The translations under genes were made by a program, and so were the position numbers. A stretch of DNA of 64,000 bases, taken from NCBI RefSeq assembly GCF_003024155.1, contig NZ_CP028136.1, positions 930,001-994,000 of the forward strand. Direction: 5' to 3'. This stretch comes from Christiangramia fulva (GTDB taxonomy: Bacteria > Bacteroidota > Bacteroidia > Flavobacteriales > Flavobacteriaceae). Each line of letters starts with the position of its first letter. Within the stretch, counting starts at the first letter, position 1. The notes beneath the pieces are model-generated. The model worked only from the letters and a program-made list of their open reading frames with translations. It did not search any database and was not told the DNA's origin. Of the stretch, positions 31,564 to 43,237 are shown one piece after another.

Positions 31564-31770
31564 TTAGGTCAATTTTACCGATTCCTTCACAGTTTTTAAC
31601 TCACTCCACGTGTGAAAATTGGCGAAAAATCCCAAGGCCCCAGCATTCCCGATGAGGTCAAAGACCAGATCTTGATATTGCATGGTGGCAAGATCAAGAT
31701 CGATAAGCCCGAAAACGTAGGCGCCGTGGTATCGCTGATTTTCTAGCTGGAATAAAATATAAATTCTCAA
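31564..31770 (-). CDS. Short hypothetical ORF, possible gene remnant
   Basis: 68 residues, no family recognised. The stretch around QYQDLVFDLIGNAGALGFF resembles the end of a membrane protein of the VanZ or DUF2238 kind, but the rest of such a protein is missing. The plus strand also reads open for about 45 codons here. This may be a decayed gene tail rather than a functional gene. Confidence 0.2.
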   Translation of the reverse strand: MRIYILFQLENQRYHGAYVFGLIDLDLATMQYQDLVFDLIGNAGALGFFANFHTWSELKTVKESVKLT

Positions 31771-31822
31771 GAGATCTCTGCAAATAATTATCAGCGGGCA
31801 TTTTACTGTGTGAATTTTTTTA

Positions 31823-31830
31823 TATTTTTG
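31823..31830 (+). promoter_or_regulatory. -7 promoter box of the tRNA-Leu/GIY-YIG unit
   Basis: TATTTTTG fits TAnnTTTG and lies 12 bp before the tRNA-Leu 5'-copy at 31843, the spacing expected for a tRNA promoter. No comparable box is seen between the GIY-YIG gene and the intact tRNA, so this is probably the only promoter for the whole unit. Confidence 0.55.
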
Positions 31831-31851
31831 CCGTCCAATTATGCTCGAGTG

Positions 31852-31871
31852 CCTACCTTTCGGCAGGCAGG
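31852..31871. repeat. 20-nt palindromic insert, copy 1
   Basis: CCTACCTTTCGGCAGGCAGG lies cleanly between nt 9 and nt 10 of the tRNA-Leu copy. It shares 15 of 20 positions with copy 2 and can fold with a CCTxCCT/AGGCAGG stem. Confidence 0.75.
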
Positions 31872-31885
31872 GCGGAATTGGTAGA

Positions 31886-31905
31886 CCTGTCTGCCGACAG
31901 GCAGG
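31886..31905. repeat. 20-nt palindromic insert, copy 2
   Basis: CCTGTCTGCCGACAGGCAGG lies cleanly inside the D-arm of the tRNA-Leu copy. It is a near-perfect palindrome, and of the same length, orientation and family as copy 1. Confidence 0.75.
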
Positions 31906-31917
31906 CGCGCTGAAAAA

Positions 31918-32163
31918 ATGATTACAGTTTATGCTATTTCAAGTATATATCATCACTACATAGATGTAGGGATGACAGAAAATATAGAAGAACGGTTTAA
32001 ACGACATAATTCAGGAAGAGAAAAAACAACAAAAGCTTATCTTCCTTTTGAGCTAATTTTTACCGAGCTTTGCGAAAACAGAGTAGAAGGTAGAAAAAGA
32101 GAGAAATACTGGAAATCTGGTATTGGAAAGGAAAAATTAAAAAGGCTCAGAAAATTAAAATAA
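31918..32163 (+). CDS. Small GIY-YIG endonuclease inserted at tRNA-Leu
   Basis: 81 residues. It has the GIY-YIG fold of the UvrC N-terminal/YhbQ type: TVYAISS and YIDVGMT stand for the GIY and YIG strands, Arg in ERFKRHNSG is the catalytic arginine, and Glu in KREKYWKSG is the metal-binding residue. The start ATG follows the truncated tRNA copy by five A residues, and the stop TAA ends one base before the intact tRNA-Leu. Stand-alone GIY-YIG nucleases can act as homing enzymes. The tight packing suggests the gene is transcribed with the tRNA and that RNase P cuts its mRNA 3' end. Target and activity are not known. Confidence 0.85.
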   Translation: MITVYAISSIYHHYIDVGMTENIEERFKRHNSGREKTTKAYLPFELIFTELCENRVEGRKREKYWKSGIGKEKLKRLRKLK

Positions 32164-32164
32164 T

Positions 32165-32246
32165 GCTCGAGTGGCGGAACTGGTAGACGCGCTGGATTCA
32201 AAATCCAGTTTCTTCGGAAGTGCGGGTTCGATTCCCGCCTCGAGTA
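32165..32246 (+). tRNA. tRNA-Leu (anticodon CAA)
   Basis: 82 nt. The acceptor stem is GCTCGAG/CTCGAGT (first pair G-T), with discriminator A and no encoded CCA. The D-arm carries GGTAGAC. The anticodon stem CTGGA/TCCAG holds loop TTCAAAA with anticodon CAA. There is a variable arm (TTTCTTCGGAAG) typical of type II tRNAs, and a TTCGATT T-loop. It is followed by a strong terminator and then the integrase gene, so it is the likely attachment site for the mobile element. Confidence 0.96.
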
Positions 32247-32271
32247 CTTTTTAAACATCAAATCGAATTAA

Positions 32272-32304
32272 AACCCCGTAAATCTCAGTGTTTACGGGGT
32301 TTTT
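32272..32304 (+). terminator. Terminator after tRNA-Leu
   Basis: Perfect 11-bp arms AACCCCGTAAA (32272-32282) and TTTACGGGGTT (32291-32301), loop TCTCAGTG, then TTTT. It ends the tRNA transcript before the integrase. Confidence 0.92.
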
Positions 32305-32486: not shown

Positions 32487-33704
32487 ATGCAAAATTTACT
32501 TTCAATCTTATTCTTCATCAGAAAGAGTAAAGGTATAGAAGCAACTGAAGGCACAATTTACCTCCGAATTACCTATAACGGACAGAGATCTGAAATCAGT
32601 ACCTTCCGAAAAGTTGTGCTTTCAAAGTGGAATGCAAAAGCAAATAAAGTTACCGGAACCTCCTCCCAAGCAAGGCAGATTAACAGAAGCCTTGAAATAA
32701 TAAAAAATGAAATACACGAGATTTATCAAAAATTTCTAAAAGAGGGAGAGGAAATATCTGCGGTTAAGATTAAGAATGAATATTTAGGAGAAGGGGAAAA
32801 CAAAAAGTCCATTCTTGCAATGTTTGATGAGCACAATCAAAGAATGGAGAAGCTGGTTGGAAAAGATTACTCTTTTAGAACCCTCCAGAGATATAAAACA
32901 ACCCAGAAACATCTGAAGTTTTTTATCGCTGATAGTTTCAAAAGCAATGATTTTCCTGTTAATAATCTAGATACTAAATTTATTAATAGCTTTATTTATT
33001 ACTTAAAAACTGTCGTAAATCTTTCTCATAACTCATCTCTTAAGTACCTCGCTTATTTAAAAAAGATTGTACGAGTAGCATACGCTAATGGTTGGATAGA
33101 TAAAGATCCTTTCTACAATTTTAAATTAAAACTTCAAAAAATTGATCGTGAGTTTCTAAATAAAGAGGAGATAATCAAAATAATGGAGAAGGAATTTTTA
33201 ATTCCTAGAATGGAACATGTAAGAGATGTTTTTCTATTTTCCTGTTATACTGGTTTAGCATTTTCAGATGTACAAAAATTGACCGAAAATGATATTGTTA
33301 AAGGGATAGATGGAAATCTATGGATTAAAACCAAACGAACTAAAACGAAGGTTTTGAGCAGTATTCCTTTACTCCCTGTTGCCGAAAAAATCATTCAAAA
33401 ATATCAAGGCAATGAATATCCCCAAAAGAAGCTACTTCCGGTTTATTCAAATCAAAAAATGAATAGCTATCTTAAAGAAATCGCCGACAGCTGCGGAATT
33501 AAAAAGAACCTTACTTTTCATATGGCCAGGCATACCTTTGCTACGACAGTTACCTTATCTAATGGAGTTCCTATTGAATCAGTCAGCAAAATGCTAGGCC
33601 ATAGTTCTCTTAAAACAACTCAGCATTACGCCAAAATTCTAGATGAAAAACTAAGTGAAGACATGAACATTCTAAAGCAGAGGATATCGGTGGCAAATAA
33701 ATAG
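32487..33704 (+). CDS. Tyrosine recombinase / integrase, CTn-NBU type
   Basis: 405 residues. It has an Arm DNA-binding domain (1-90), a SAM-like core-binding domain (about 110-205) and the catalytic domain (210-400). Catalytic residues visible are the Lys in KTKRTKTK, HMARHTFA (His and Arg), LGHSSLKTT, and the nucleophile Tyr in QHYAKI. The position of the first catalytic arginine reads TGLAFSD, so it is not Arg in that motif; this substitution is known for the CTnDOT-related integrases. It directly follows tRNA-Leu and is expected to recombine the element into the tRNA. Confidence 0.93.
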   Translation: MQNLLSILFFIRKSKGIEATEGTIYLRITYNGQRSEISTFRKVVLSKWNAKANKVTGTSSQARQINRSLEIIKNEIHEIYQKFLKEGEEISAVKIKNEYLGEGENKKSILAMFDEHNQRMEKLVGKDYSFRTLQRYKTTQKHLKFFIADSFKSNDFPVNNLDTKFINSFIYYLKTVVNLSHNSSLKYLAYLKKIVRVAYANGWIDKDPFYNFKLKLQKIDREFLNKEEIIKIMEKEFLIPRMEHVRDVFLFSCYTGLAFSDVQKLTENDIVKGIDGNLWIKTKRTKTKVLSSIPLLPVAEKIIQKYQGNEYPQKKLLPVYSNQKMNSYLKEIADSCGIKKNLTFHMARHTFATTVTLSNGVPIESVSKMLGHSSLKTTQHYAKILDEKLSEDMNILKQRISVANK

Positions 33705-33987
33705 TGACATGGATTTCCTAAACGGTGAATTCGAGAAGTACTTTTCTTTTCCTTTTTTACGAAGATCTATGTAATTCGTTTAAAAATCTCAAATACGGAA
33801 AATTTTAGGTAAGAGGTCATATGATATTAAAAGGTTTCATTTACTGTAGGAATAAAATTAATCTTCTTACCATTTTACATTATTTTCAATCAAAATAAAT
33901 GTTTTATAAATAATATTCATTTTAAATATCATTTTTGTAATTTTCATTGAAGTATTGTCAATACTTTGACTGTAATGAATTTACAAG

Positions 33988-35199
33988 ATGAAAGATCCAA
34001 GTTCCTATATCCGGGTCGGTACCCAGTATTATAAAAAGGTACAAATACCTACCATTTCAGGTCATACTAATCATAGCTTGATTCCATGGACTATGGAAAC
34101 CATTCGCCAGGATCATGGTAAAACCTTTCTGGGTCAGATTCCAAAATATGATGGCTTCACCTGTATTCCCGATCACTTAAATTTTCAATCCACCTACCAT
34201 ACTTTTTATAATACCTATGCTCCGCTTAGTCATGAGCCAGCCGAAGGCAGCATTAAACGATCCCTGGAATTCATAGATCACATCTTTGGGACTCACAGTG
34301 AACTCGGATTGGACTACCTGCAATTACTTTTTACCCGGCCTACTCAAATCCTTCCCATCTTGTGCCTGGTCTCCCAGGAACGCTCTACTGGAAAAAGCAC
34401 CTTTTTAAAATGGCTGAAGCATATCTTTCAGGGGAACCTGACCTACTTAGTCAATGATGATTTCAGCAGCCAGTTCAATTCAGATTGGACTAGCAAATTA
34501 CTGATCTGCATCGATGAAGTTTTATTTAATAAAGAGGAGCTGACCGAACGTATCAAATACCTAAGCACGACCAATTACAATAAGCTCGAAGCAAAAGGAA
34601 AGGATAAACGGGAAGTAGAGTTTTTTGGGAAGTTTATTCTCTGCAGTAACAACGAAGAAAACTTTATCAAGATCGATCAGCATGAAACCCGGTTTTGGGT
34701 GCTGAAGGTTCCAAAGGCTAAAAAGGAAGAAACAGAATTCCTCGAAAAGCTCCGCCAGGAGATCCCGGCCTTTCTTTATTTCCTTACTAGGCGACAAATG
34801 CATACTACAAAGAAAACACGCATGTGGTTTACGCCGGAACAAATTGAGACCAAAGCTTTACGACAGCTGGTTTATAATAATAGAAGCCGGGTAGAGAAGG
34901 AATTGGCAAGTCTGCTTTTCACTCTTATGGAGTCGGATGATGCTGAGGAGATTAAAATCTGCCCTGTGGATGCCTTACATGCACTGGGTAAATCCAGGGT
35001 ACGTACGGATCTCACACAAATCCGGAAAATACTTAAAAAAGACTGGAACCTGACCAATCAGCCCAATTCCAACCGCTACCTCCGATTTGTGATCTACGGC
35101 GATGGAGATATCAACTGGAGAGAAGCTAAAGGACGTTATTTCACCATAAATAAAATGTTTTTACAGCAGCAGTTTGGAGACCCTAAGGAGGCAAAATGA
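33988..35199 (+). CDS. Primase-helicase-like P-loop ATPase (DUF5906/VapE-type, D5-like)
   Basis: 403 residues. The central domain is an SF3/VapE-like ATPase: Walker A SQERSTGKSTFL near residue 130, Walker B LLICIDEV near residue 170, then a sensor-type CSNNEENF and an arginine finger region ETRFWVL. The N-terminus (IRVGTQYYKK) is the usual start of element-borne helicases in Bacteroidota, and the C-terminal winged-helix-like part follows residue 290. It is expected to unwind element DNA during replication. It precedes the origin-like iteron cluster. Confidence 0.88.
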   Translation: MKDPSSYIRVGTQYYKKVQIPTISGHTNHSLIPWTMETIRQDHGKTFLGQIPKYDGFTCIPDHLNFQSTYHTFYNTYAPLSHEPAEGSIKRSLEFIDHIFGTHSELGLDYLQLLFTRPTQILPILCLVSQERSTGKSTFLKWLKHIFQGNLTYLVNDDFSSQFNSDWTSKLLICIDEVLFNKEELTERIKYLSTTNYNKLEAKGKDKREVEFFGKFILCSNNEENFIKIDQHETRFWVLKVPKAKKEETEFLEKLRQEIPAFLYFLTRRQMHTTKKTRMWFTPEQIETKALRQLVYNNRSRVEKELASLLFTLMESDDAEEIKICPVDALHALGKSRVRTDLTQIRKILKKDWNLTNQPNSNRYLRFVIYGDGDINWREAKGRYFTINKMFLQQQFGDPKEAK

Positions 35200-35217
35200 T
35201 GCCAGGTCAAACAAAAA

Positions 35218-35443
35218 TGATGAATTGATGACAAAATGATGACAAGGAATCCTCAATAGTGACGGGGGCTTCCGGGTGCTGTCATCGTTTCATCATTTTT
35301 GAATAGAATATTGGAGGGTACACTTATAGTTTTTCTCTTTTTTTTGATGAATTGATGACAAAGTATAATAACATCAGTAATAATAAGGGTTTAGGCTGTC
35401 ATCATTTTGTCATCAAACTGTCATCAAAATGAAAATGATGACA
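35218..35443. repeat. Iteron-like repeat cluster (candidate origin of replication)
   Basis: The octamer TGATGACA occurs four times in direct orientation (35226, 35237, 35353, 35436) and its complement TGTCATCA three times perfectly (35397, 35408, 35419) plus once with one change (35280). An 18-bp unit TGATGAATTGATGACAAA is repeated exactly at 35218-35235 and 35345-35362. The region sits between the helicase gene and the primase gene of the element and is AT-rich. It looks like an iteron origin at which an initiator binds. Function is inferred. Confidence 0.6.
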
Positions 35444-35538
35444 GAACATAAGAAAAGACGTACAAGATACTAAAGCCGTCAAAATTTCATCATTCGAAAT
35501 GCTGTTGAAATATAAAATGAAGCGTGCCTTTTCACTAC

Positions 35539-35585
35539 TTACCTAAACAAAACCCCGTCTATGGGTGAGGGCTTTGTTTAGGTAA
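35539..35585. repeat. Strong 13-bp hairpin upstream of the primase gene
   Basis: Perfect arms TTACCTAAACAAA (35539-35551) and TTTGTTTAGGTAA (35573-35585), with CCC/GGG adding pairs inside. It is followed by AAAAAG and not by a T-run, so it is not an obvious terminator for the plus strand. It could be a single-strand initiation site for the primase or a regulatory stem. Confidence 0.6.
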
Positions 35586-35682
35586 AAAAGAGAAAGAATG
35601 AATAAGACTAACATCACTATATATTTTTCAATTCAACTGCAAATCCATACGACTGGTTTGGATAGCATTAAAAGTAAGGCTC

Positions 35683-36552
35683 ATGAGAGCGCGAAAACTA
35701 ACCTGTGAAAAAGCCCGCAATATTTGCATTGTGGACACGCTGGCAAAACTGGGGCACTTTCCCAGTAGGAGAACGGAGAAAGAAGCCTGGTTCCTGAGTC
35801 CCCTTCGGTCAGAAACACAGGCCTCTTTCAAAGTGTCTTTGAAACTGAATCGATGGTATGACTTCGGAATTGGCAAAGGTGGCAACGTCATTGACCTGGT
35901 TTGCCAAGTATGCGATTGCTCGGTTGGTGAAGCCCTGGAGTACCTGTCCGACGAATTACCGATTTACAACTTTCAGGGTTCTGTATCCGATACTTCTACA
36001 AAGAAGAGCAGAAATACCATCATCAAAGTCAAAACGATCACCCAAAGTCACCTAAAGAAGTATGTGCGATCCAGAGGTATTTCCCTAGAAGTAGCCAGAA
36101 CCTATTGCAAGGAAGTTTGGTATGAATCTCACGGGAAAACCTATTACGCCATAGGACTTCAGAATAAAAAAGGTGGCTGGGAACTTCGCAACCTCTATTC
36201 TAAAACCTCCAGCTCCCCTAAAACTTATACGTATCTCCAAAAGAAAAAAGAAAACCTGATTGTTTGCGAAGGAATGTTTGATCTGTTATCCATTGCTGAA
36301 GTTTATCCGAAGGAAATAGAAAGTACTGATATCATCGTTTTAAACTCACTTTCATTTTTACCCCGGATTATCTCATGTTTTAAGAAGTACAAATCGGTGG
36401 ATCTCTATCTGGATAATGATAAACCCGGAAAGAAAAATACCACCGAATTACTAAAGCATTATCACCATATAAAAGACCAAAGTCATCGCTATAAAAACCA
36501 TAAAGACCTCAATGAAAAACTAACTTGTGGACACCAAATTTCCACAGCCTAA
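35683..36552 (+). CDS. Toprim primase without the zinc cysteines
   Basis: 289 residues. The N-terminal 90 residues have the shape of a CHC2 primase zinc-binding domain (LSPLRSETQASFKVSLKLNRWYDFGIGKGGNVIDLV), but the zinc-binding Cys and His positions are replaced. The C-terminal Toprim domain has the catalytic Glu in LIVCEGMFDLLS and the DxD-type pair in YLDNDKPGKKN. This type of primase is common on NBU and other mobilizable elements of Bacteroidota and would prime the element's own replication or the transferred strand. The start at 35683 follows the non-coding origin-like region. Confidence 0.88.
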   Translation: MRARKLTCEKARNICIVDTLAKLGHFPSRRTEKEAWFLSPLRSETQASFKVSLKLNRWYDFGIGKGGNVIDLVCQVCDCSVGEALEYLSDELPIYNFQGSVSDTSTKKSRNTIIKVKTITQSHLKKYVRSRGISLEVARTYCKEVWYESHGKTYYAIGLQNKKGGWELRNLYSKTSSSPKTYTYLQKKKENLIVCEGMFDLLSIAEVYPKEIESTDIIVLNSLSFLPRIISCFKKYKSVDLYLDNDKPGKKNTTELLKHYHHIKDQSHRYKNHKDLNEKLTCGHQISTA

Positions 36553-36568
36553 AAACATTTTTTGAATA

Positions 36569-36609
36569 GCAAAGCAAGATGTGTCATTGTCATGACAATC
36601 TTGCTTTGC
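36569..36609 (+). other. oriT-like hairpin
   Basis: Arms GCAAAGCAAGAT (36569-36580) and ATCTTGCTTTGC (36598-36609) are perfect, and inner arms TGTCAT (36582-36587) and ATGACA (36592-36597) extend the stem to 18 pairs with one bulged G and a 4-nt loop. GCCCGGAGGTTGC follows directly. It lies just upstream of mobC and the relaxase gene, the usual position of oriT in Bacteroidota mobilizable elements. The nick site is not determined. Confidence 0.75.
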
Positions 36610-36633
36610 GCCCGGAGGTTGCAAAGATTAAAA

Positions 36634-36930
36634 ATGAAACGGGAAGTCATCCAGATTCGATGCTCGATCTACGAGAAAAAGCTACTCAAAAAAAGAGCGG
36701 CCAGGGCCGGAATTTCCCTTTCAGAATATCTAAGAGCCACTGCCTTTAAAATTAATATTGTAGAAAGACTCACCCCGGAACAACTGGAATGCTACCAGAT
36801 GCTGGTAAAGTATAAAAACAATTTTATACGAATCAGTAATATGTTTAAAAAGCGAGATCCTCAATTGGCTAAAAATGTGGAAGCGCTGGCCGAAGAAATA
36901 CGACAACACCTCTACCATTTTAAAAGATGA
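36634..36930 (+). CDS. mobC: MobC-type relaxosome accessory protein
   Basis: 98 residues from the ATG at 36634 (MKREVIQIRCSIYEKK); an upstream start at 36562 would run through the oriT hairpin. The RHH-like N-terminus and the motif RAARAGISLSEYLRATAF are the signature of MobC/BmgB accessory proteins, which bind oriT and help the relaxase open the strand. The C-terminal half is helical (LAKNVEALAEEIRQHLYHFK). It overlaps the relaxase start by ATGA, so both are translated together. Confidence 0.9.
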   Translation: MKREVIQIRCSIYEKKLLKKRAARAGISLSEYLRATAFKINIVERLTPEQLECYQMLVKYKNNFIRISNMFKKRDPQLAKNVEALAEEIRQHLYHFKR

Positions 36931-37799
36931 TCGGAAAGGGGCAATCCATATCAAGAACCCAGGCGTCTATAGCCTATGGCTGGAACCAGGAGAAAGAGGC
37001 GGAAGTGGTACTCAAAGAACACCTTGCGGGTGATACTCCCAAACAAATCGCTGAAGAATTCCAGATCATTCAATCTCAGAATGAGAGGTGCATTAAAAAC
37101 ACCTTAAGTTTTGTGGTGAGTCCTACCATCAAAGATGGTAAAGAATTAAGCCATAAAGACCTGGAGAAAATTGCCCAACGATTTATAAATGAAATGAAAC
37201 TTCAGAACCACCAGGCCATAGGTTTTGTACATAAGGACAAGCAGCACACTCATATTCATATCTATGCCAATCGAATTAGTCTAACCGGGCAAACCTATAG
37301 AGACAATTTTATTGGCAAACGAAGCCAGATCGCAGCAGATAATGTTGCCAAACAACTAGGTCTAACCCGGGTAAGGGAAGTACAACAGGAAAAAATCCAG
37401 GAATTAAAATGGCAACGTCTTGTCATACAAAAGCATCATCAACAGGTGATGGAAACCAGGCCGAAATCACTGGATGAATATATCGATAAAATGAAGGCTT
37501 GTAAGGTAAAGGTCATACCCAGTATCAACAAATCGAACCAGCTGCAGGGGTTTCGGTTCGAGTATAAAGGAGCCAATTTAAAAGGAAGCGAAGTACACCG
37601 ATCTATGAGCGGTAGTAAACTGATCGCTGAGATTTCCCAGAATAATAGTTACACTAGACTCCGAGAAGTCCCTCAAACTTTAAAATTGCTAAATAATACT
37701 GTCGAACTTAGCACGAACATGGCTGGTAAAATAGCTAAAGATCTGGCCAAGCAGGTGATCAAGAGAGGCCTTGATACCGGACTGGGTATGGGATATTAA
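36927..37799 (+). CDS. mobB: Relaxase / mobilization nuclease (MobB-type, MOBP-like)
   Basis: 290 residues. The N-terminal 150 residues are a relaxase domain: ISRTQASIAYGWNQEKEAE at the start, HQAIGFVHKDKQHTHIHIYANRI as the metal-binding histidine motif, and the Tyr candidates in the first 20 residues for DNA linkage. A helical and basic linker follows (KWQRLVIQKHHQQ). It would nick at the oriT hairpin upstream. The protein is short compared with self-transmissible relaxases and agrees with a mobilizable element that depends on another system. Confidence 0.9.
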   Translation: MIGKGQSISRTQASIAYGWNQEKEAEVVLKEHLAGDTPKQIAEEFQIIQSQNERCIKNTLSFVVSPTIKDGKELSHKDLEKIAQRFINEMKLQNHQAIGFVHKDKQHTHIHIYANRISLTGQTYRDNFIGKRSQIAADNVAKQLGLTRVREVQQEKIQELKWQRLVIQKHHQQVMETRPKSLDEYIDKMKACKVKVIPSINKSNQLQGFRFEYKGANLKGSEVHRSMSGSKLIAEISQNNSYTRLREVPQTLKLLNNTVELSTNMAGKIAKDLAKQVIKRGLDTGLGMGY

Positions 37800-37811
37800 A
37801 ATAACTAAAAG

Positions 37812-38264
37812 ATGAAAAAGCTGGATGAAATTATGGAACTAATGGCCGATGAAATGGCCGATTTTAAAAATGCCCTTATAAAACTAGAAGCATTATCAAA
37901 AGAGCTTAATGATATGAGCATTCCGATAAGTACTACAGCTATAGATAAGAACCTTAAAGATTTTCTTAGAAACCAGAAGGAAGCCAATAATGAAAAAGAG
38001 GAGTTACTTAAGGGTATTACTACTCAATTAAAGCAAAGCAGTCTTATTCCAAAATATATTCTACTTCTTTTTGGCAGCTGTTTACTAATAATGCTAATCA
38101 TGTTCGGTTACTTTATCTATTCTGACAAAATTGAAGAAGCGCAGCGATTTGAAATTTACCGGGCAGTTTCTGAATCAGAGTTAGAATCCTATCAATTTTA
38201 TTTTTCTGAAAATTCCAAGATCAAAGAAGTGTATTGCAAATGGCTGGAACAATCCTATAAGTAG
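37812..38264 (+). CDS. Hypothetical membrane protein with coiled coil, element tail
   Basis: 150 residues. The first 85 residues are a charged helical coiled coil (MKKLDEIMELMADEMADFKNALIKL), then one membrane helix (YILLLFGSCLLIMLIMFGYFIY), and a short outer part. It follows the relaxase by 12 bp and is likely part of the same transcript. Similar 'MobB-tail' membrane proteins occur in other Bacteroidota mobilizable elements. A role in relaxosome docking is possible but not shown. Confidence 0.75.
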   Translation: MKKLDEIMELMADEMADFKNALIKLEALSKELNDMSIPISTTAIDKNLKDFLRNQKEANNEKEELLKGITTQLKQSSLIPKYILLLFGSCLLIMLIMFGYFIYSDKIEEAQRFEIYRAVSESELESYQFYFSENSKIKEVYCKWLEQSYK

Positions 38265-38498: not shown

Positions 38499-41400
38499 TT
38501 AATATTCCAGGCGACGACGCTCCGCCTCCTCATCTTGACGCTCCGCCTCTAAAAGATAACTTCTAGCCATATTTTCAAAGATTTGAGCAACGTTTGGGTA
38601 TTTGAACTTGAAATCATCGGACAACTTTCGAAAATAAGAGGCTCTTTCACGTTCAATGTCTCCACCATCAAAAGCACCTCGAGAAGTAAAACTTCTTTTA
38701 TTAAACATCCCAGAAGAATAATTTTGTTTTATACTGTCACTGTTGATTGATTCAATAACCTCAAAAATTGTTTCGTTTGGCCATTCTGGAACATTCTCAG
38801 GGTACTGTGCCAAAAGTTTTCCTATTTCCGAATCAGCAACCTTTAAGCGCTCTACATCCACAGCAAGTTCTCTTGCTTTCTTAATCCAGTCCCATAAGAC
38901 TTCTTTATCTATTGTATTGTCTTCTTGTAATCCTGGGATTTTCTTCCAAGAATGTAGTAGATGATAGGACTGTTTTCCTCTGGACCTAAAAACTTCATCT
39001 GAAATATCTTCCTTTTCCTTTTCAAGTAATTCTTGGTCTTTTGGTAGGTATAACCACTTAAGCACATCTATAAAAAATGAAGGGTTTGTGGCAAGCTCAT
39101 CTTCTAAGTTCTTTGGATTTCTATTTGAGCCATAAGAATCCATTAGCGCCAAGTAATACCATTCTAATTGAATCAGTTTTGGCCGGTCGATATCTCGTTT
39201 ATCCAGTTCTTCGAAAATTCGCTCAATTTCGTGCCCCTTGAATCTAGCTTTTTCATCTGCTTCTTGAGTTACGGCTTTTTCAAGTATTTCAATCAACAGT
39301 TCACTTTTGACTTTTTCAGGCCTTAAGTAAGCCACATCGATGGCAGAAAAAAACCTTTTGTAACTTAAAAGTTGATTAAGCCCGTACTCAACTTCATCTT
39401 CAGTAGCGTGCAAAAAACGTGGATAAACACTACACCAATACAAATCCTGAACTTCTTTATCCTGTTCAGAAATAAAATTCCATAATTGCATATTTTGGTC
39501 TAGTGGAATCAATACGTTTGAAAGCACTTTGTGACTAAAGCTCTCTTCCTTCAGTTTATTAAATAATGATTTTACCCAATCAAATCCTTCTAAAACTGAT
39601 TTACGGTACATAAAACCATGACTAAATCTTATGTAAGGGTCTTCATCTTCGAGACTGCTACATACTGAGAGCACATCATCTTCAGTAAGATTAACTCTGG
39701 CAAAAGCGTCACCAAAAATCCAAAATTCCTTCAAATCATTTCGCAAGGCTAAAGCTTCCTCTACACCTAGACTATCAATCAGTTCTTCAACAGCTTGTTT
39801 CCTAGCCTCATCATCTTGATTTTGTTTGAGTGCATATCTGTTAACACCATCACGCTTTTCGTACTTACAGCCTTCTGGAAATTCTAAATGATGGTTATTG
39901 AACAACCAACTGTTTTGCTTTACAACATCCTCCGGTTGAAGCTTATGATATAATCTTTCATAGCGCTTCAGTTCTTCTTCTGGCAATGCCCATTTAGTAT
40001 CAGAATGAGACCTATGCCGATATAAAATATTTCTCAAAGTCTCCCAGGTAGTAAATTCTTCTTGTTTGACAACCTGGTGCACTTCTTCAGCCCAATCCAA
40101 AACTCGTTTCCTATCTTTTGGACTCAATTCCGTTGTTGCCTTTAACACTTGAGCGAATTTCTTTTCATCATTATCAAATAATTCTATTAACATTTTAACT
40201 ACAGCCGTATGGGTATCCCAAATTTCTTGATAGGTTCTAGTTAAGTTAGTGTTCATATCAAACATACGCCAACGCATCTTGTGTGTGAATTGACCTACAC
40301 CATGGCTATTAGGTAACAATCTGATCAGTAAATTCCAGCCTTTTTGTTTTTCTTGAATAGTGACCTCCTTAAGAATTTGAATCCTTTCATCAATGGAAGC
40401 CAAAGTTTGATGATGCCAAGGTTTGTAAATTTCTACAATACTATTTATTGGCCTATTTGATAAATGACCGCCAGGGTCAAGTCGTGCAAGTATTAGCAGA
40501 ATCAAACTGGCATCTTTCAAATAAGCTGGAAACCAAGCAAGACTTTCTAAAGCCCACAGCAATCCAGTGTGATGACTTGTTTTATGCAGAAAGCCTTCCT
40601 CTTCCTGAAACAAATCCATTATTTCTGGTTCATCCTTTTCTAAAGAGGCTTTGATGGCTTTCAAAAAGCTATTAGGTGACGCTTCTGAAATTAAAGGTAA
40701 GTCACGGTCTAGTGAAATCCAAAGCTCTCCTGTAGCATCTTTTACCAAATCTTGAATTATTGAATCTACCCAGCCTTGTGGATTACCAATGTTAATACTC
40801 ACACTATCGCCCAAGCGAGCAATTAATATTAGGGACTGTGTTAAACCTTGTCGCGACCAGGCCGAAAACTTTCGTTTTTGATTAAACCGCGAAGCAAAAT
40901 CATCATTCTTTGGGTTCGCAATTGGATTACCACTTTTGAAAGCCATTTCAAAACACTCTTTTAGCAGCTGAAAATCATTCATTACAAGATTTGAAGCAAG
41001 ATTTGTCCATAAGTCTAAAGGCGACGTCAGTCGCCAAGTTTCACCAATTTGTAATATGGGTGACTCGTCCAAATTTTTCCATTTGTTTAGGACTTGCTTG
41101 TAATCATCATACGGTTGTTTAGCAAGTTTTTCTAAAAGCTCTATATCTCCCTTGAATGTTTCATCCCACCTGCCAATTAACAGGGCTGGTATAACCTCGC
41201 GAATATCTTGTTCGGTAAGCCATTTTGCTTTATTGTACGGAAAACCAAGAAGTTTTTTCAATATAGTAATATTCCGACCGGATTCACGGGAAAATTTTTC
41301 AGCCTCATTCTTTTCGACCCCACTTTGTGTTAAGCCTTTAATCTGACCATCTCTGTCAATAGTGGGTAGTGTAATCGTATCTTGGTTGAAATCGTCATCG

Positions 41401-42290
41401 GCACCTAAAGGCACAAGGACGTGATGTCCTCGACCCACAGCAGTGTATAGTGGTTGGTAGTCTTCGAATCTTGGTATAAGATTTAAGTTTAAGTCGTTGT
41501 TATACTTTATAGAACGAAAATTCCCTTCAGTATCAACAATTAGTGCTTTAGAAAAGAATTCTTGCGCATATTCATCTCCAAATTTTTTTGCACAAGCAAC
41601 TATAAAAGCGATCGCCTCATTTTTCGTAGAAGCTTTAATAGCTTTAAGGGACGGATCGCTATTCAAAATAGCTAGTAACTTTTCCTTTTCAATTTCTCTA
41701 CCAGCAATTACGGTTTCAGGTAAAAGTTCTATCCCATTGGGGCCAACTGACCATTCTTCCCAAAATTCGTCTGCAGTCATCATGCCATCTGTGGGATAAG
41801 ATGCACCTACACCATTTTGGGAAGCAAACCATCTTGAAACAGATGATGCATCATCCAACCACTGTTCTATATCTACGGAATCATATACTCGGACATCTTT
41901 CCAAATCCCTTCGGCTTTTTTTTCAGCAATCCATTCATCCTTTTTTGTCCATAATCGAGGTGTTACAAAAATGAAAACACATTCTGTTGGTTCGAAGCTT
42001 AAAGGTTTATCCTTCCTTTTTTCATATTCACCATTTGCTTTTCCTTTAATATCTAAATCGGTTCCAAGCTCCCATAACGAAACTCCCTGGGGTACGTAAG
42101 CTGTATCAGATTCACAATTCACTATACCATCCCAGCCACCGATGTAGGTTGCACTACCCCAGGCCATTTTTGCCCTGGTACTTTTTGGTGAAGTCGCTCT
42201 AATGAGCCTTGAAATTAGATAAGGTAGTGTGGACTTTGATAAAACAGTATCCGCCCAGTTTTGCAAATGGTTTCGAGTTATTAATCCCAT
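38499..42290 (-). CDS. Large candidate defence protein with PD-(D/E)xK-like N-terminus
   Basis: 1263 residues; the family is not named with certainty. The first 155 residues look like a PD-(D/E)xK nuclease of the Mrr/restriction kind: Asp54 in GGWDG, Glu74 in SLWELG, and Lys82/Lys84 in DIKGKANGEYEKR, followed by FVTPRLW and a YDSVDIEQWLDD helix. Next (about 180-260) is a stretch like a STAND NTPase entry (VIAGREIEKEKLLAIL, then KASTKNEAIAF), but the Walker A lysine pattern is missing. The remaining about 950 residues are helical and acidic without a clear motif and end in EEAERRRLEY. It lies on the minus strand among accessory genes. A DUF2971 gene precedes it by 173 bp. Defence function is inferred from size, N-terminus and context. 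Confidence 0.75.
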   Translation of the reverse strand: MGLITRNHLQNWADTVLSKSTLPYLISRLIRATSPKSTRAKMAWGSATYIGGWDGIVNCESDTAYVPQGVSLWELGTDLDIKGKANGEYEKRKDKPLSFEPTECVFIFVTPRLWTKKDEWIAEKKAEGIWKDVRVYDSVDIEQWLDDASSVSRWFASQNGVGASYPTDGMMTADEFWEEWSVGPNGIELLPETVIAGREIEKEKLLAILNSDPSLKAIKASTKNEAIAFIVACAKKFGDEYAQEFFSKALIVDTEGNFRSIKYNNDLNLNLIPRFEDYQPLYTAVGRGHHVLVPLGADDDFNQDTITLPTIDRDGQIKGLTQSGVEKNEAEKFSRESGRNITILKKLLGFPYNKAKWLTEQDIREVIPALLIGRWDETFKGDIELLEKLAKQPYDDYKQVLNKWKNLDESPILQIGETWRLTSPLDLWTNLASNLVMNDFQLLKECFEMAFKSGNPIANPKNDDFASRFNQKRKFSAWSRQGLTQSLILIARLGDSVSINIGNPQGWVDSIIQDLVKDATGELWISLDRDLPLISEASPNSFLKAIKASLEKDEPEIMDLFQEEEGFLHKTSHHTGLLWALESLAWFPAYLKDASLILLILARLDPGGHLSNRPINSIVEIYKPWHHQTLASIDERIQILKEVTIQEKQKGWNLLIRLLPNSHGVGQFTHKMRWRMFDMNTNLTRTYQEIWDTHTAVVKMLIELFDNDEKKFAQVLKATTELSPKDRKRVLDWAEEVHQVVKQEEFTTWETLRNILYRHRSHSDTKWALPEEELKRYERLYHKLQPEDVVKQNSWLFNNHHLEFPEGCKYEKRDGVNRYALKQNQDDEARKQAVEELIDSLGVEEALALRNDLKEFWIFGDAFARVNLTEDDVLSVCSSLEDEDPYIRFSHGFMYRKSVLEGFDWVKSLFNKLKEESFSHKVLSNVLIPLDQNMQLWNFISEQDKEVQDLYWCSVYPRFLHATEDEVEYGLNQLLSYKRFFSAIDVAYLRPEKVKSELLIEILEKAVTQEADEKARFKGHEIERIFEELDKRDIDRPKLIQLEWYYLALMDSYGSNRNPKNLEDELATNPSFFIDVLKWLYLPKDQELLEKEKEDISDEVFRSRGKQSYHLLHSWKKIPGLQEDNTIDKEVLWDWIKKARELAVDVERLKVADSEIGKLLAQYPENVPEWPNETIFEVIESINSDSIKQNYSSGMFNKRSFTSRGAFDGGDIERERASYFRKLSDDFKFKYPNVAQIFENMARSYLLEAERQDEEAERRRLEY

Positions 42291-42463
42291 TATATTACGG
42301 TATTATCAATAATTTCCTATAGATAACATATTAAGGACCTTCTTATTAAGAAATTCTGAGGGACTATTTTTTAATTTCATTTTAGTAAATAAAAATAGGA
42401 AAATATAAGGTTTTCTTTTTTTAGATGCTTGTTTCTAGAGAAAACAGAAGTTTACGATAGAGT

Positions 42464-43237
42464 TTACTCGTATAAAAGACCATAAGAAAGATGTAATTCA
42501 GGATCTCTTTTAATGCGTTGATACACCTTAATTTGAGGATATTTCCTTTTTACGACATCAATTACTTGGTCAATAAAATCGTTATCGGCTTTGTGACCAA
42601 TAAGGATATTTTTCAAAGCTATTGGTTTAAACTTGACTTGGCCGATTTTGTCCTTCAGAACCCTAAGTTCTTTCTCGTAAGACCATTTTTTTGTTTTCTT
42701 GAAAAAGAGCTCAGTAATGTGTTCATCGTCTGTAATGGCATTAAACACTTGCTTTTTTAATTCATTTACATAGGTAATTGGTCGCCAGCCATCAAAAAAA
42801 TGTTTGTCTTCATTCATATCAAAATGCAGGCATAAGCCCTTATCGTTTTTGGAATATTCTGCCCATAGCTTATAATTCATTGGGTACATTGTAAAGCAGG
42901 CTATGCCAGTATTTTCTATATAGGGTTTTACTTTCGCTTTCGCGAAAACCATTAAATCCTTATCGGTCAATTTTGCTATGTAGTCTTTGGTGATGGAATT
43001 TGGTACATATTGATTTAAGGTGCTCCGAAGCTCATTAACTTCATAAATGCCATCATTTAACTCAACAAATTCTGGGTTTGAGTCCAGCTCATCATTAAGC
43101 TTCGTGCGGGTTTGAAAAAACACATAATTATTTTCAAGTTCATCCAAAGTATTTCTGCCAGGTGAACGAAAACGGAACGTATTGGGCGGAAACATTGGAA
43201 TCAGATATTCATCCAAAGGATTTATAAAATCATTCAT
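42464..43237 (-). CDS. DUF2971 family protein
   Basis: 257 residues. The conserved features of DUF2971 are visible: N-terminal FRFRSPGRNTLDELENN and FQTRTKLNDELDSNPEF, the central IACFTMYPMNYKLWAEYSKNDKGLCLHFD, and the later KTKKWSYEKELRVL. The family function is not established; members often sit in defence or mobile regions. It precedes the 1263-residue gene on the same strand and may be its partner. The 5' region (43238-43644) is 407 bp of AT-rich DNA. Confidence 0.85.
   Translation of the reverse strand: MNDFINPLDEYLIPMFPPNTFRFRSPGRNTLDELENNYVFFQTRTKLNDELDSNPEFVELNDGIYEVNELRSTLNQYVPNSITKDYIAKLTDKDLMVFAKAKVKPYIENTGIACFTMYPMNYKLWAEYSKNDKGLCLHFDMNEDKHFFDGWRPITYVNELKKQVFNAITDDEHITELFFKKTKKWSYEKELRVLKDKIGQVKFKPIALKNILIGHKADNDFIDQVIDVVKRKYPQIKVYQRIKRDPELHLSYGLLYE

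Follow-up and report, generated by a model that had tools for sequence, protein, structure and literature searches.

The locus studied here is probably a member of a widespread family of minimal homing-type elements that are targeted to tRNA genes and rebuild the invaded tRNA from a half that they carry, a reading that rests on sequence comparison. It is found in Christiangramia fulva (the genus was formerly called Gramella), in a window of 64,000 nucleotides, i.e., the whole stretch that was analysed, which corresponds to positions 930001-994000 of a one-contig genome of 4.38 Mb. tRNA genes are favoured entry points of mobile DNA, and in bacteria the known occupants are mainly integrases at the 3' end and introns. 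In the present case, a family of nucleases, 81 residues long in the window, appears to inhabit tRNA genes across a phylum and to rebuild them, and its layout would place expression of the tRNA behind the nuclease's own message.

From left to right, the locus consists of a promoter element, the 5' half of a tRNA-Leu gene, a GIY-YIG nuclease gene, a single base, an intact tRNA-Leu(CAA) gene and a terminator-like repeat (Table 1). The sequence-only reading had proposed that a tRNA-type promoter stands at the upstream partial copy and that the stop codon of the nuclease falls one base before the full tRNA-Leu, and both proposals hold. The sole plus-strand string of the -7 type (TANNTTTG) within 31701-32260 is located at 31823-31830, ahead of the partial copy, and no such string is present directly before 32165 on that strand and in that range; positions 31821-31830 were compared with TAnnTTTG, which we take to be the Bacteroidota -7 promoter consensus. 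The ORF (31918-32163) ends with a TAA stop codon one base ahead of the tRNA, which starts at 32165. When the C. fulva genome was searched with tRNA-Leu(CAA), the window copy and one 71% match were recovered, and there was no second strong match. A group I intron was rejected, since Rfam gathering scores give only the tRNA in the 64 kb and this tRNA is complete.

Table 1. Features of the occupied tRNA-Leu(CAA) locus, in window coordinates.
Feature	Position	Strand	Evidence
Bacteroidota-type -7 promoter element TATATTTTTG of the original tRNA-Leu gene (putative)	31821..31830	+	matches TAnnTTTG
Dead 5' half of tRNA-Leu (tRNA nt 1-30) with two palindromes	31843..31912	+	interrupted-copy alignment
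Palindromic insert 1, 20 bp, after tRNA nt 9	31852..31871	+	sequence and alignment
Palindromic insert 2, 20 bp, end of D-loop	31886..31905	+	sequence and alignment
Minimal GIY-YIG nuclease gene, 81 aa	31918..32163	+	PF01541, E 2.8e-12
Intact tRNA-Leu(CAA)	32165..32247	+	ARAGORN; Rfam 32165-32246, 59.8 bits
Terminator-like inverted repeat with T-run behind the tRNA	32270..32303	+	13 nt arms, 100% complementary

The upstream copy had also been described as 30 nt of tRNA-Leu. The copy itself is real, but it is not a clean, uninterrupted run of 30 nt, since two 20-bp palindromes break it. The stub (31843-31912) is made up of GCTCGAGTG, the first palindrome (31852-31871), GCGGAATTGGTAGA, the second palindrome (31886-31905) and CGCGCTG. 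In an alignment that tolerates insertions, the window stub (row L056) scores 44.5, compared to at most 25.5 in its five shuffles, and 33 of the 34 aligned positions are identical to tRNA-Leu, with the two palindromes as additional inserts. Folding of 31831-31930 as RNA predicts a strong hairpin (-41.8 kcal/mol, z -4.23), in which the two palindromes pair together. Inserts after tRNA nt 9, the position of palindrome 1, are present in other Leu loci too, and palindrome 2 is shared, as an identical 20-mer, by 10 of the 19 further Leu-CAA loci with the half before the nuclease in the family set (defined below). In addition, the stub and the full copy differ at one base of the D-loop: the stub reads AATTGG, as do 19 of 20 empty relatives, and the full copy reads AACTGG, as does 1 of the 20. 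Such a difference, here of a single base, would be expected had the element brought along the 5' half of the rebuilt gene, the stub then being what is left of the host's original half.

To compare occupied and empty sites, 21 tRNA-Leu(CAA) loci of the same genus were inspected, with flanks of up to 1.5 kb (only 98 bp upstream in L038); the promoter string was judged by eye, and the absence of a GIY-YIG gene was called by tblastn at E 1e-5. In 20 of the 21 loci, a TATnnTTTTG-type string lies directly before an intact tRNA-Leu(CAA) and there is no GIY-YIG gene. The remaining locus (G003) is occupied as in the window, with stop codons within its nuclease. These are occupied and empty alleles of the same site, to which the window adds a further occupied one. 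Relatives without the nuclease gene had been expected to show the promoter directly before an intact tRNA-Leu, and the 20 empty loci bear this out; together with the recurrence described below, they support the earlier proposal that the layout is that of a nuclease element that entered a tRNA gene and restored a full copy of it. Two genomes stand outside the count of 21, the incomplete G020, which gave no match, and G002. In G002 (L052, G002:C54:170398-173440), the native promoter and tRNA-Leu nt 1-43 are followed, 24 bp on, by a different complete tRNA-Leu(CAA), and a 3' tRNA-Leu half is located elsewhere (L048); L052 gives the impression of an integrative element that came with a tRNA of its own. 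A search for synteny with the DedA-like neighbour gave no hit in the 21 genus loci.

A tyrosine integrase gene starts at 32487, 240 bp behind the tRNA-Leu, and 3' tRNA-Leu halves, of the kind left by integrase insertions, are present in relatives. The stub and the full copy might then derive from this neighbouring element, or from an ordinary tandem duplication, with the nuclease as a passenger, an explanation that we consider distinctly improbable. Homologues of the integrase (51-78%) are located behind empty tRNA-Leu genes in G016, G021 and G011 (3 of the 21 genus loci), which implies that the integrase element and the nuclease unit are separable, and no integrase homologue lies within the flanks of the occupied locus in G003. 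With the window integrase as the query, a match is found in 7 of the 110 family loci, the window included, whereas the other 103 have none within the sequence covered by each locus; moreover, the nuclease recurs at many tRNA types in target-specific lineages, which also argues against this explanation. The integrase was rejected as the carrier of the nuclease unit on account of its homologues at empty genes and the only 7 of 110 loci matched. Since such homologues also follow empty tRNA-Leu genes, the neighbouring mobilisable element (32487-38264) appears to be a separate tRNA-Leu element. Besides the tyrosine integrase gene, it has DUF5906 and Toprim genes, as well as ORFs that look relaxase-like by eye, and its far end was not found by a search for tRNA 3'-end repeats. 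Minus-strand ORFs of 1263 and 257 aa (38499-43237) lie behind the mobilisation genes and are possibly cargo.

The pairing of a small GIY-YIG gene with a tRNA gene recurs widely. A profile of seven such proteins has a match in 231 of 299 genomes of the bacterial family at E 1e-5, and not every match is tRNA-linked. The family set of 110 loci was taken from the top of the ranked match list, apart from five listed places (30 loci, the window's own included, and 80 further ones), with neighbouring copies merged. A same-strand tRNA abuts the nuclease in 96 of these 110 loci (nearest-tRNA rule, best matches listed), a rate that holds for best matches to tRNA-linked queries and is not valid for every small GIY-YIG gene. 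Control windows were placed in the same loci at a distance of more than 400 bp, and only 5 of 832 are tRNA-adjacent; chance adjacency was rejected on this comparison. The nearest-tRNA rule finds no adjacent tRNA at the other 14 loci, several of which lie where a contig ends. As targets, the family set has Leu-CAA (22), Arg-TCG (22), Met (18), Pro-TGG (12), Ala-GGC (9), Arg-ACG (7), Pro-GGG (5) and Ser-GCT (1, on a cut contig), with 14 unassigned.

Wider searches gave a similar picture, with 41 of 50 loci tRNA-adjacent, although nine of the 50 had already been covered by the first set. Of the 22 loci that come from outside the order, 20 adjoin a tRNA, and Leu-CAG, Leu-GAG, Leu-TAA, Arg-CCT, Arg-TCT, Cys-GCA and Ser-GCT are added as targets. 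In a set of named genomes, which was found via peptide patterns of the window protein and shares some genomes with the family set, 71 of 79 loci are tRNA-adjacent, 52 of them at tRNA-Leu(CAA), and of the eight that are not, six lie at the end of a contig. A few loci of this set are filed as Chlorobiota, WOR-3 or Patescibacteria, which are metagenome bins whose filing was taken as given. Other tRNA/GIY-YIG pairs in related genomes, which the sequence-only reading had called for, are therefore present in large numbers (96/110, 20/22 and 71/79).

The unit exists in two mirror forms. Among the 96 assigned family loci, the order is half, nuclease, full tRNA in 80 and full tRNA, nuclease, half in 16. 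The half copy was assessed in 95 of the 110 loci; excluded were the 14 whose tRNA is unassigned and the one labelled Ser. In an alignment allowing insertions, it scores above the best of 475 shuffles in 80 of the 95 and not above in 15, and in the wider sets it exceeds the best shuffle in 78 of 88 loci. Halves that stand before the nuclease begin at tRNA nt 1 in 70 of 80 loci and end at nt 28-41, around the anticodon arm, in 52 of 80; 20 of the 80 extend further and 8 end earlier, and in 10 of the 80 the alignment continues past tRNA nt 55, to nearly full length. Of the 15 halves behind the nuclease, 13 extend as far as the 3' end of the tRNA. The loci thus vary both in the entry point and in the form of the stub.

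The halves are frequently interrupted, as in the window. Inserts of at least 8 nt at nt 22-24, the end of the D-loop, number 47 in the family set, and inserts of at least 12 nt at nt 21-24 number 53 in the wider sets. By a simple self-complementarity rule applied to the family set, 50 of 103 inserts of at least 12 nt are self-complementary, compared to 2 of 103 after shuffling, and at least one clear palindrome lies in the half at 44 of 95 loci. The stop codon of the nuclease is inside the tRNA in 52 of the 80 'before' loci, where cutting by RNase P would remove it; in the window it lies one base upstream.

Another feature of the family is the presence of arrays. At least two nuclease matches, spaced 230-520 bp apart and up to eight in number, are found in 23 of the 110 loci, and in 19 of these 23 at least one neighbouring pair is at least 95% alike. 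L123 (G170:C34:5991-10772) contains an array of eight GIY-YIG units, and behind each of them stands a 3' piece of tRNA-Met that a palindrome interrupts; the array lies behind a 3' tRNA-Met half, and no complete tRNA was called in its 4.8 kb. Arrays bring to mind the phage enzyme SegB, which amplifies a tRNA-Tyr segment, with segB genes near tRNAs in phages (PMC13096335). The present unit might likewise be a tRNA-dosage device, in which the nuclease amplifies its tRNA to outlast tRNA-cutting defences. L186 (G376:C1:1610778-1614008), outside the family, would fit this, as it has two full tRNA-Met genes with GIY-YIG matches behind each, so that the full tRNA is repeated, and L103 and L131 carry further tRNA-Met-like pieces. 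However, the family arrays inspected repeat the nuclease and the dead half, and none has two full target-type tRNAs; the full target tRNA is single, and these arrays bring no increase in the dosage of working tRNA. In viral contigs, moreover, close relatives are found at only two loci. A SegB-like dosage function is thus disfavoured, and we regard it as highly improbable.

The window protein consists of little more than the catalytic domain. Pfam detects GIY-YIG only (residues 2-68 of 81), the structure model is one short domain (pLDDT 95.6), and no separate DNA-binding domain was recognised by Pfam or in the predicted model. The catalytic Tyr of the YIG motif is present in 104 of 105 aligned proteins; the window protein alone has an Asp (Asp16), and the remaining strongly conserved residues (Tyr, Arg, Glu and Lys) are retained. 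Rows shorter than 60 aa (L081, L095, L103, L139 and L152) were dropped from this count and from the tree below. The replacement of the Tyr suggests that the window copy is probably inactive and, consequently, probably not itself mobile now. The window protein has no NCBIfam name, and no relatives were matched in annotated phages and plasmids at E 1e-5; in viral contigs, a close relative used as the query gave the two loci mentioned above, one of them at a contig end. Its identity is 74-76% to Galbibacter (74% for the protein of Galbibacter orientalis) and 65% to the stop-broken copy of the congener (G003), and this greater nearness to Galbibacter suggests movement between genera.

Profile matches of the nuclease are to UPF0213, Slx1 and I-TevI chains, and the nearest solved relatives are UPF0213 and Slx1, with weak fold matches (best E 1.5e-3, none at E 0.001 or better). 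UPF0213 and Slx1 are, to our knowledge, not mobile enzymes, and it is conceivable that the nuclease is a domesticated host gene for DNA repair or tRNA quality control that is kept beside tRNAs by selection for co-expression. A stop codon inside the tRNA, as in the 52 loci above, would tie tRNA maturation to nuclease translation, and the window copy is probably inactive yet has kept its reading frame open, both of which agree with such a role. Nevertheless, the occurrence is patchy inside one genus, copies are stop-broken or split or stand in tandem arrays, and the family set has seven assigned isoacceptor targets, besides one Ser row. A host gene is therefore an improbable explanation.

The nuclease lineages follow the tRNA that they adjoin. 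In a tree of 114 proteins over 77 columns, in which most forks are weak, the target labels require 35 changes, compared to 82 when shuffled, and none of 200 shuffles was as low. All 23 Leu rows (Leu-CAA and Leu-GAG, in both mirror forms) fall in one group with a support of 96. The Pro rows and the rows with the half behind at Met form other groups (supports 98 and 99), which are joined by unassigned rows, and the Pro group also holds the cut-contig Ser row. This clustering by target could partly reflect descent.

Based on the results presented above, a mechanism for the homing-type element may be proposed. Close to the anticodon arm of an intact tRNA gene, the nuclease would cut the DNA or promote its breakage. 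The break in the empty gene would then be repaired from an occupied copy, with the tRNA itself as the homology on both sides: one repair end would pair with the stub and the other with the full tRNA, and the nuclease and the rebuilt half would be copied in, whatever the flanking sequence. In this manner, the element would supply the tRNA half that restores a working gene, either the 5' or the 3' half being replaced, and the other half would remain as the stub. The host promoter would stay in front, where it is indeed located, as a single promoter for the stub, the nuclease and the tRNA, and RNase P would free the tRNA from the shared transcript; such an element would presumably be hard to lose. 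The rebuilt tRNA would again be a target, so that repeated events would give arrays. In the window, the nuclease has probably since lost its activity (Asp16 in place of Tyr), which would have left it as a fixed occupant. If correct, this mechanism would explain many small genes annotated as 'GIY-YIG nuclease family', as well as tRNA fragments and a dispersed palindrome, in Bacteroidota genomes.

Some points speak against this homing reading. A bare catalytic domain has no known way to read a tRNA gene, and the reading has to account for the choice of a single tRNA gene by a protein that lacks a recognisable DNA-binding domain. Furthermore, self-cutting should be a problem, as the presumed target is present in intact form in the rebuilt tRNA. 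The variation in stubs and entry points, the 15 of 95 half copies that do not exceed the shuffles, the 14 family loci with no adjacent tRNA and the weak forks of the tree count against it as well. The stub is also more than a simple leftover host half would predict, because palindrome 2 is identical letter for letter between genera, and it must have been copied with the element or added each time.

The palindrome is not confined to the stubs. With at most two mismatches, it is dispersed in 108 of the 299 family genomes, in 104 of the 231 with a GIY-YIG match versus 4 of the 68 without. The counts of palindromes and of GIY-YIG genes are correlated (Spearman 0.47, with stub copies included and kinship between genomes ignored). 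A further reading, which we hold tentatively and consider rather unlikely, is that the bare GIY-YIG domain, the tRNA half and the 20-bp palindrome make up a three-part mobile class, in which the nuclease recognises folded DNA and the dispersed palindromes are non-autonomous passengers. Rather than reading a long sequence, the nuclease would recognise the tRNA gene or the palindrome in cruciform shape, by analogy with the relative Slx1, which recognises branched DNA. If true, this would be a REP-like system run by a GIY-YIG enzyme. Like the REP palindromes and their RAYT genes, the present units combine a small nuclease gene with palindrome copies dispersed in the same genomes; RAYT proteins are HuH/Y1 enzymes, not GIY-YIG.

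Among the systems compared, the closest precedents of the tRNA-targeted element are the SegB-tRNA loci of T-even phages and the endonuclease ORFs of fungal mitochondria. SegB is described as a free-standing GIY-YIG homing endonuclease of T-even phages that is linked to tRNA genes (PMC13096335). SegB and the present units both have a GIY-YIG nuclease beside tRNA genes, no intron and tandem amplification of the nuclease segment. On the other hand, SegB is phage-borne and amplifies a full tRNA, whereas the present loci are chromosomal and the protein is the catalytic domain only; the present unit includes a tRNA half, often with a palindrome, and the full target tRNA is single in the arrays inspected. 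In Allomyces atp6 and in Glomus atp6, atp9, cox2 and nad3, mobile endonuclease ORFs bring a replacement end of the host gene and leave the native end as a duplicate, which resembles relatives more than the inserted end does, and the ORF and the gene share a transcript (PMC3630166). Similarly, in the present units an incomplete second copy of the tRNA gene stands at the other end of the ORF (80/95 and 78/88 loci, and the window). The fungal cases differ in that they concern protein genes in mitochondria and mostly LAGLIDADG enzymes, with no palindrome mentioned in the passages compared, whereas the present ones concern chromosomal tRNA genes of bacteria. Group I introns in bacterial tRNA genes, with endonucleases acting at the anticodon region, are likewise selfish occupants that do not kill an essential tRNA (PMC3984707), but the present tRNA is complete in the DNA and has no intron. 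The comparison included a word search of a 2006 GIY-YIG survey (PMC1564403). Among the open-licence PubMed Central matches listed, no tRNA-linked GIY-YIG elements of bacterial chromosomes were found, which is weak evidence of absence. Since the chromosomal, tRNA-half, bare-domain form is absent from those matches, we judge it to be a new form of a known kind of element, and the recurrence of the three-part arrangement at many tRNA genes suggests that small mobile elements of a hitherto undescribed family enter essential tRNA genes and keep them functional.

The C. fulva genome has 13 PF01541 places, eight of which were scanned by ARAGORN; among these eight, only that of the window has a called tRNA within 1.5 kb, and one other has a tmRNA. 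In the latter (L004, G000:C1:243873-247070), the tmRNA gene is followed at approximately 165 bp by a small GIY-YIG gene and preceded at approximately 190 bp by a dispersed palindrome. Another place (L005, G000:C1:3526292-3529498) stands between tRNA-Met 3' pieces that ARAGORN does not call; by eye, it is a second unit of this genome, in which a tRNA-Met 3' half is followed by the GIY-YIG gene and by a second 3' half interrupted by a palindrome. In L002 (G000:C1:1851327-1854545), a GIY-YIG gene of another lineage, without a tRNA link, is located inside a repeat array with five copies of a repeat of approximately 123 bp and one step of 456. The GIY-YIG genes of L001, L003 and L009 also appear, by eye, to be embedded in other repeats, hinting that small GIY-YIG genes and repeats are associated more widely.
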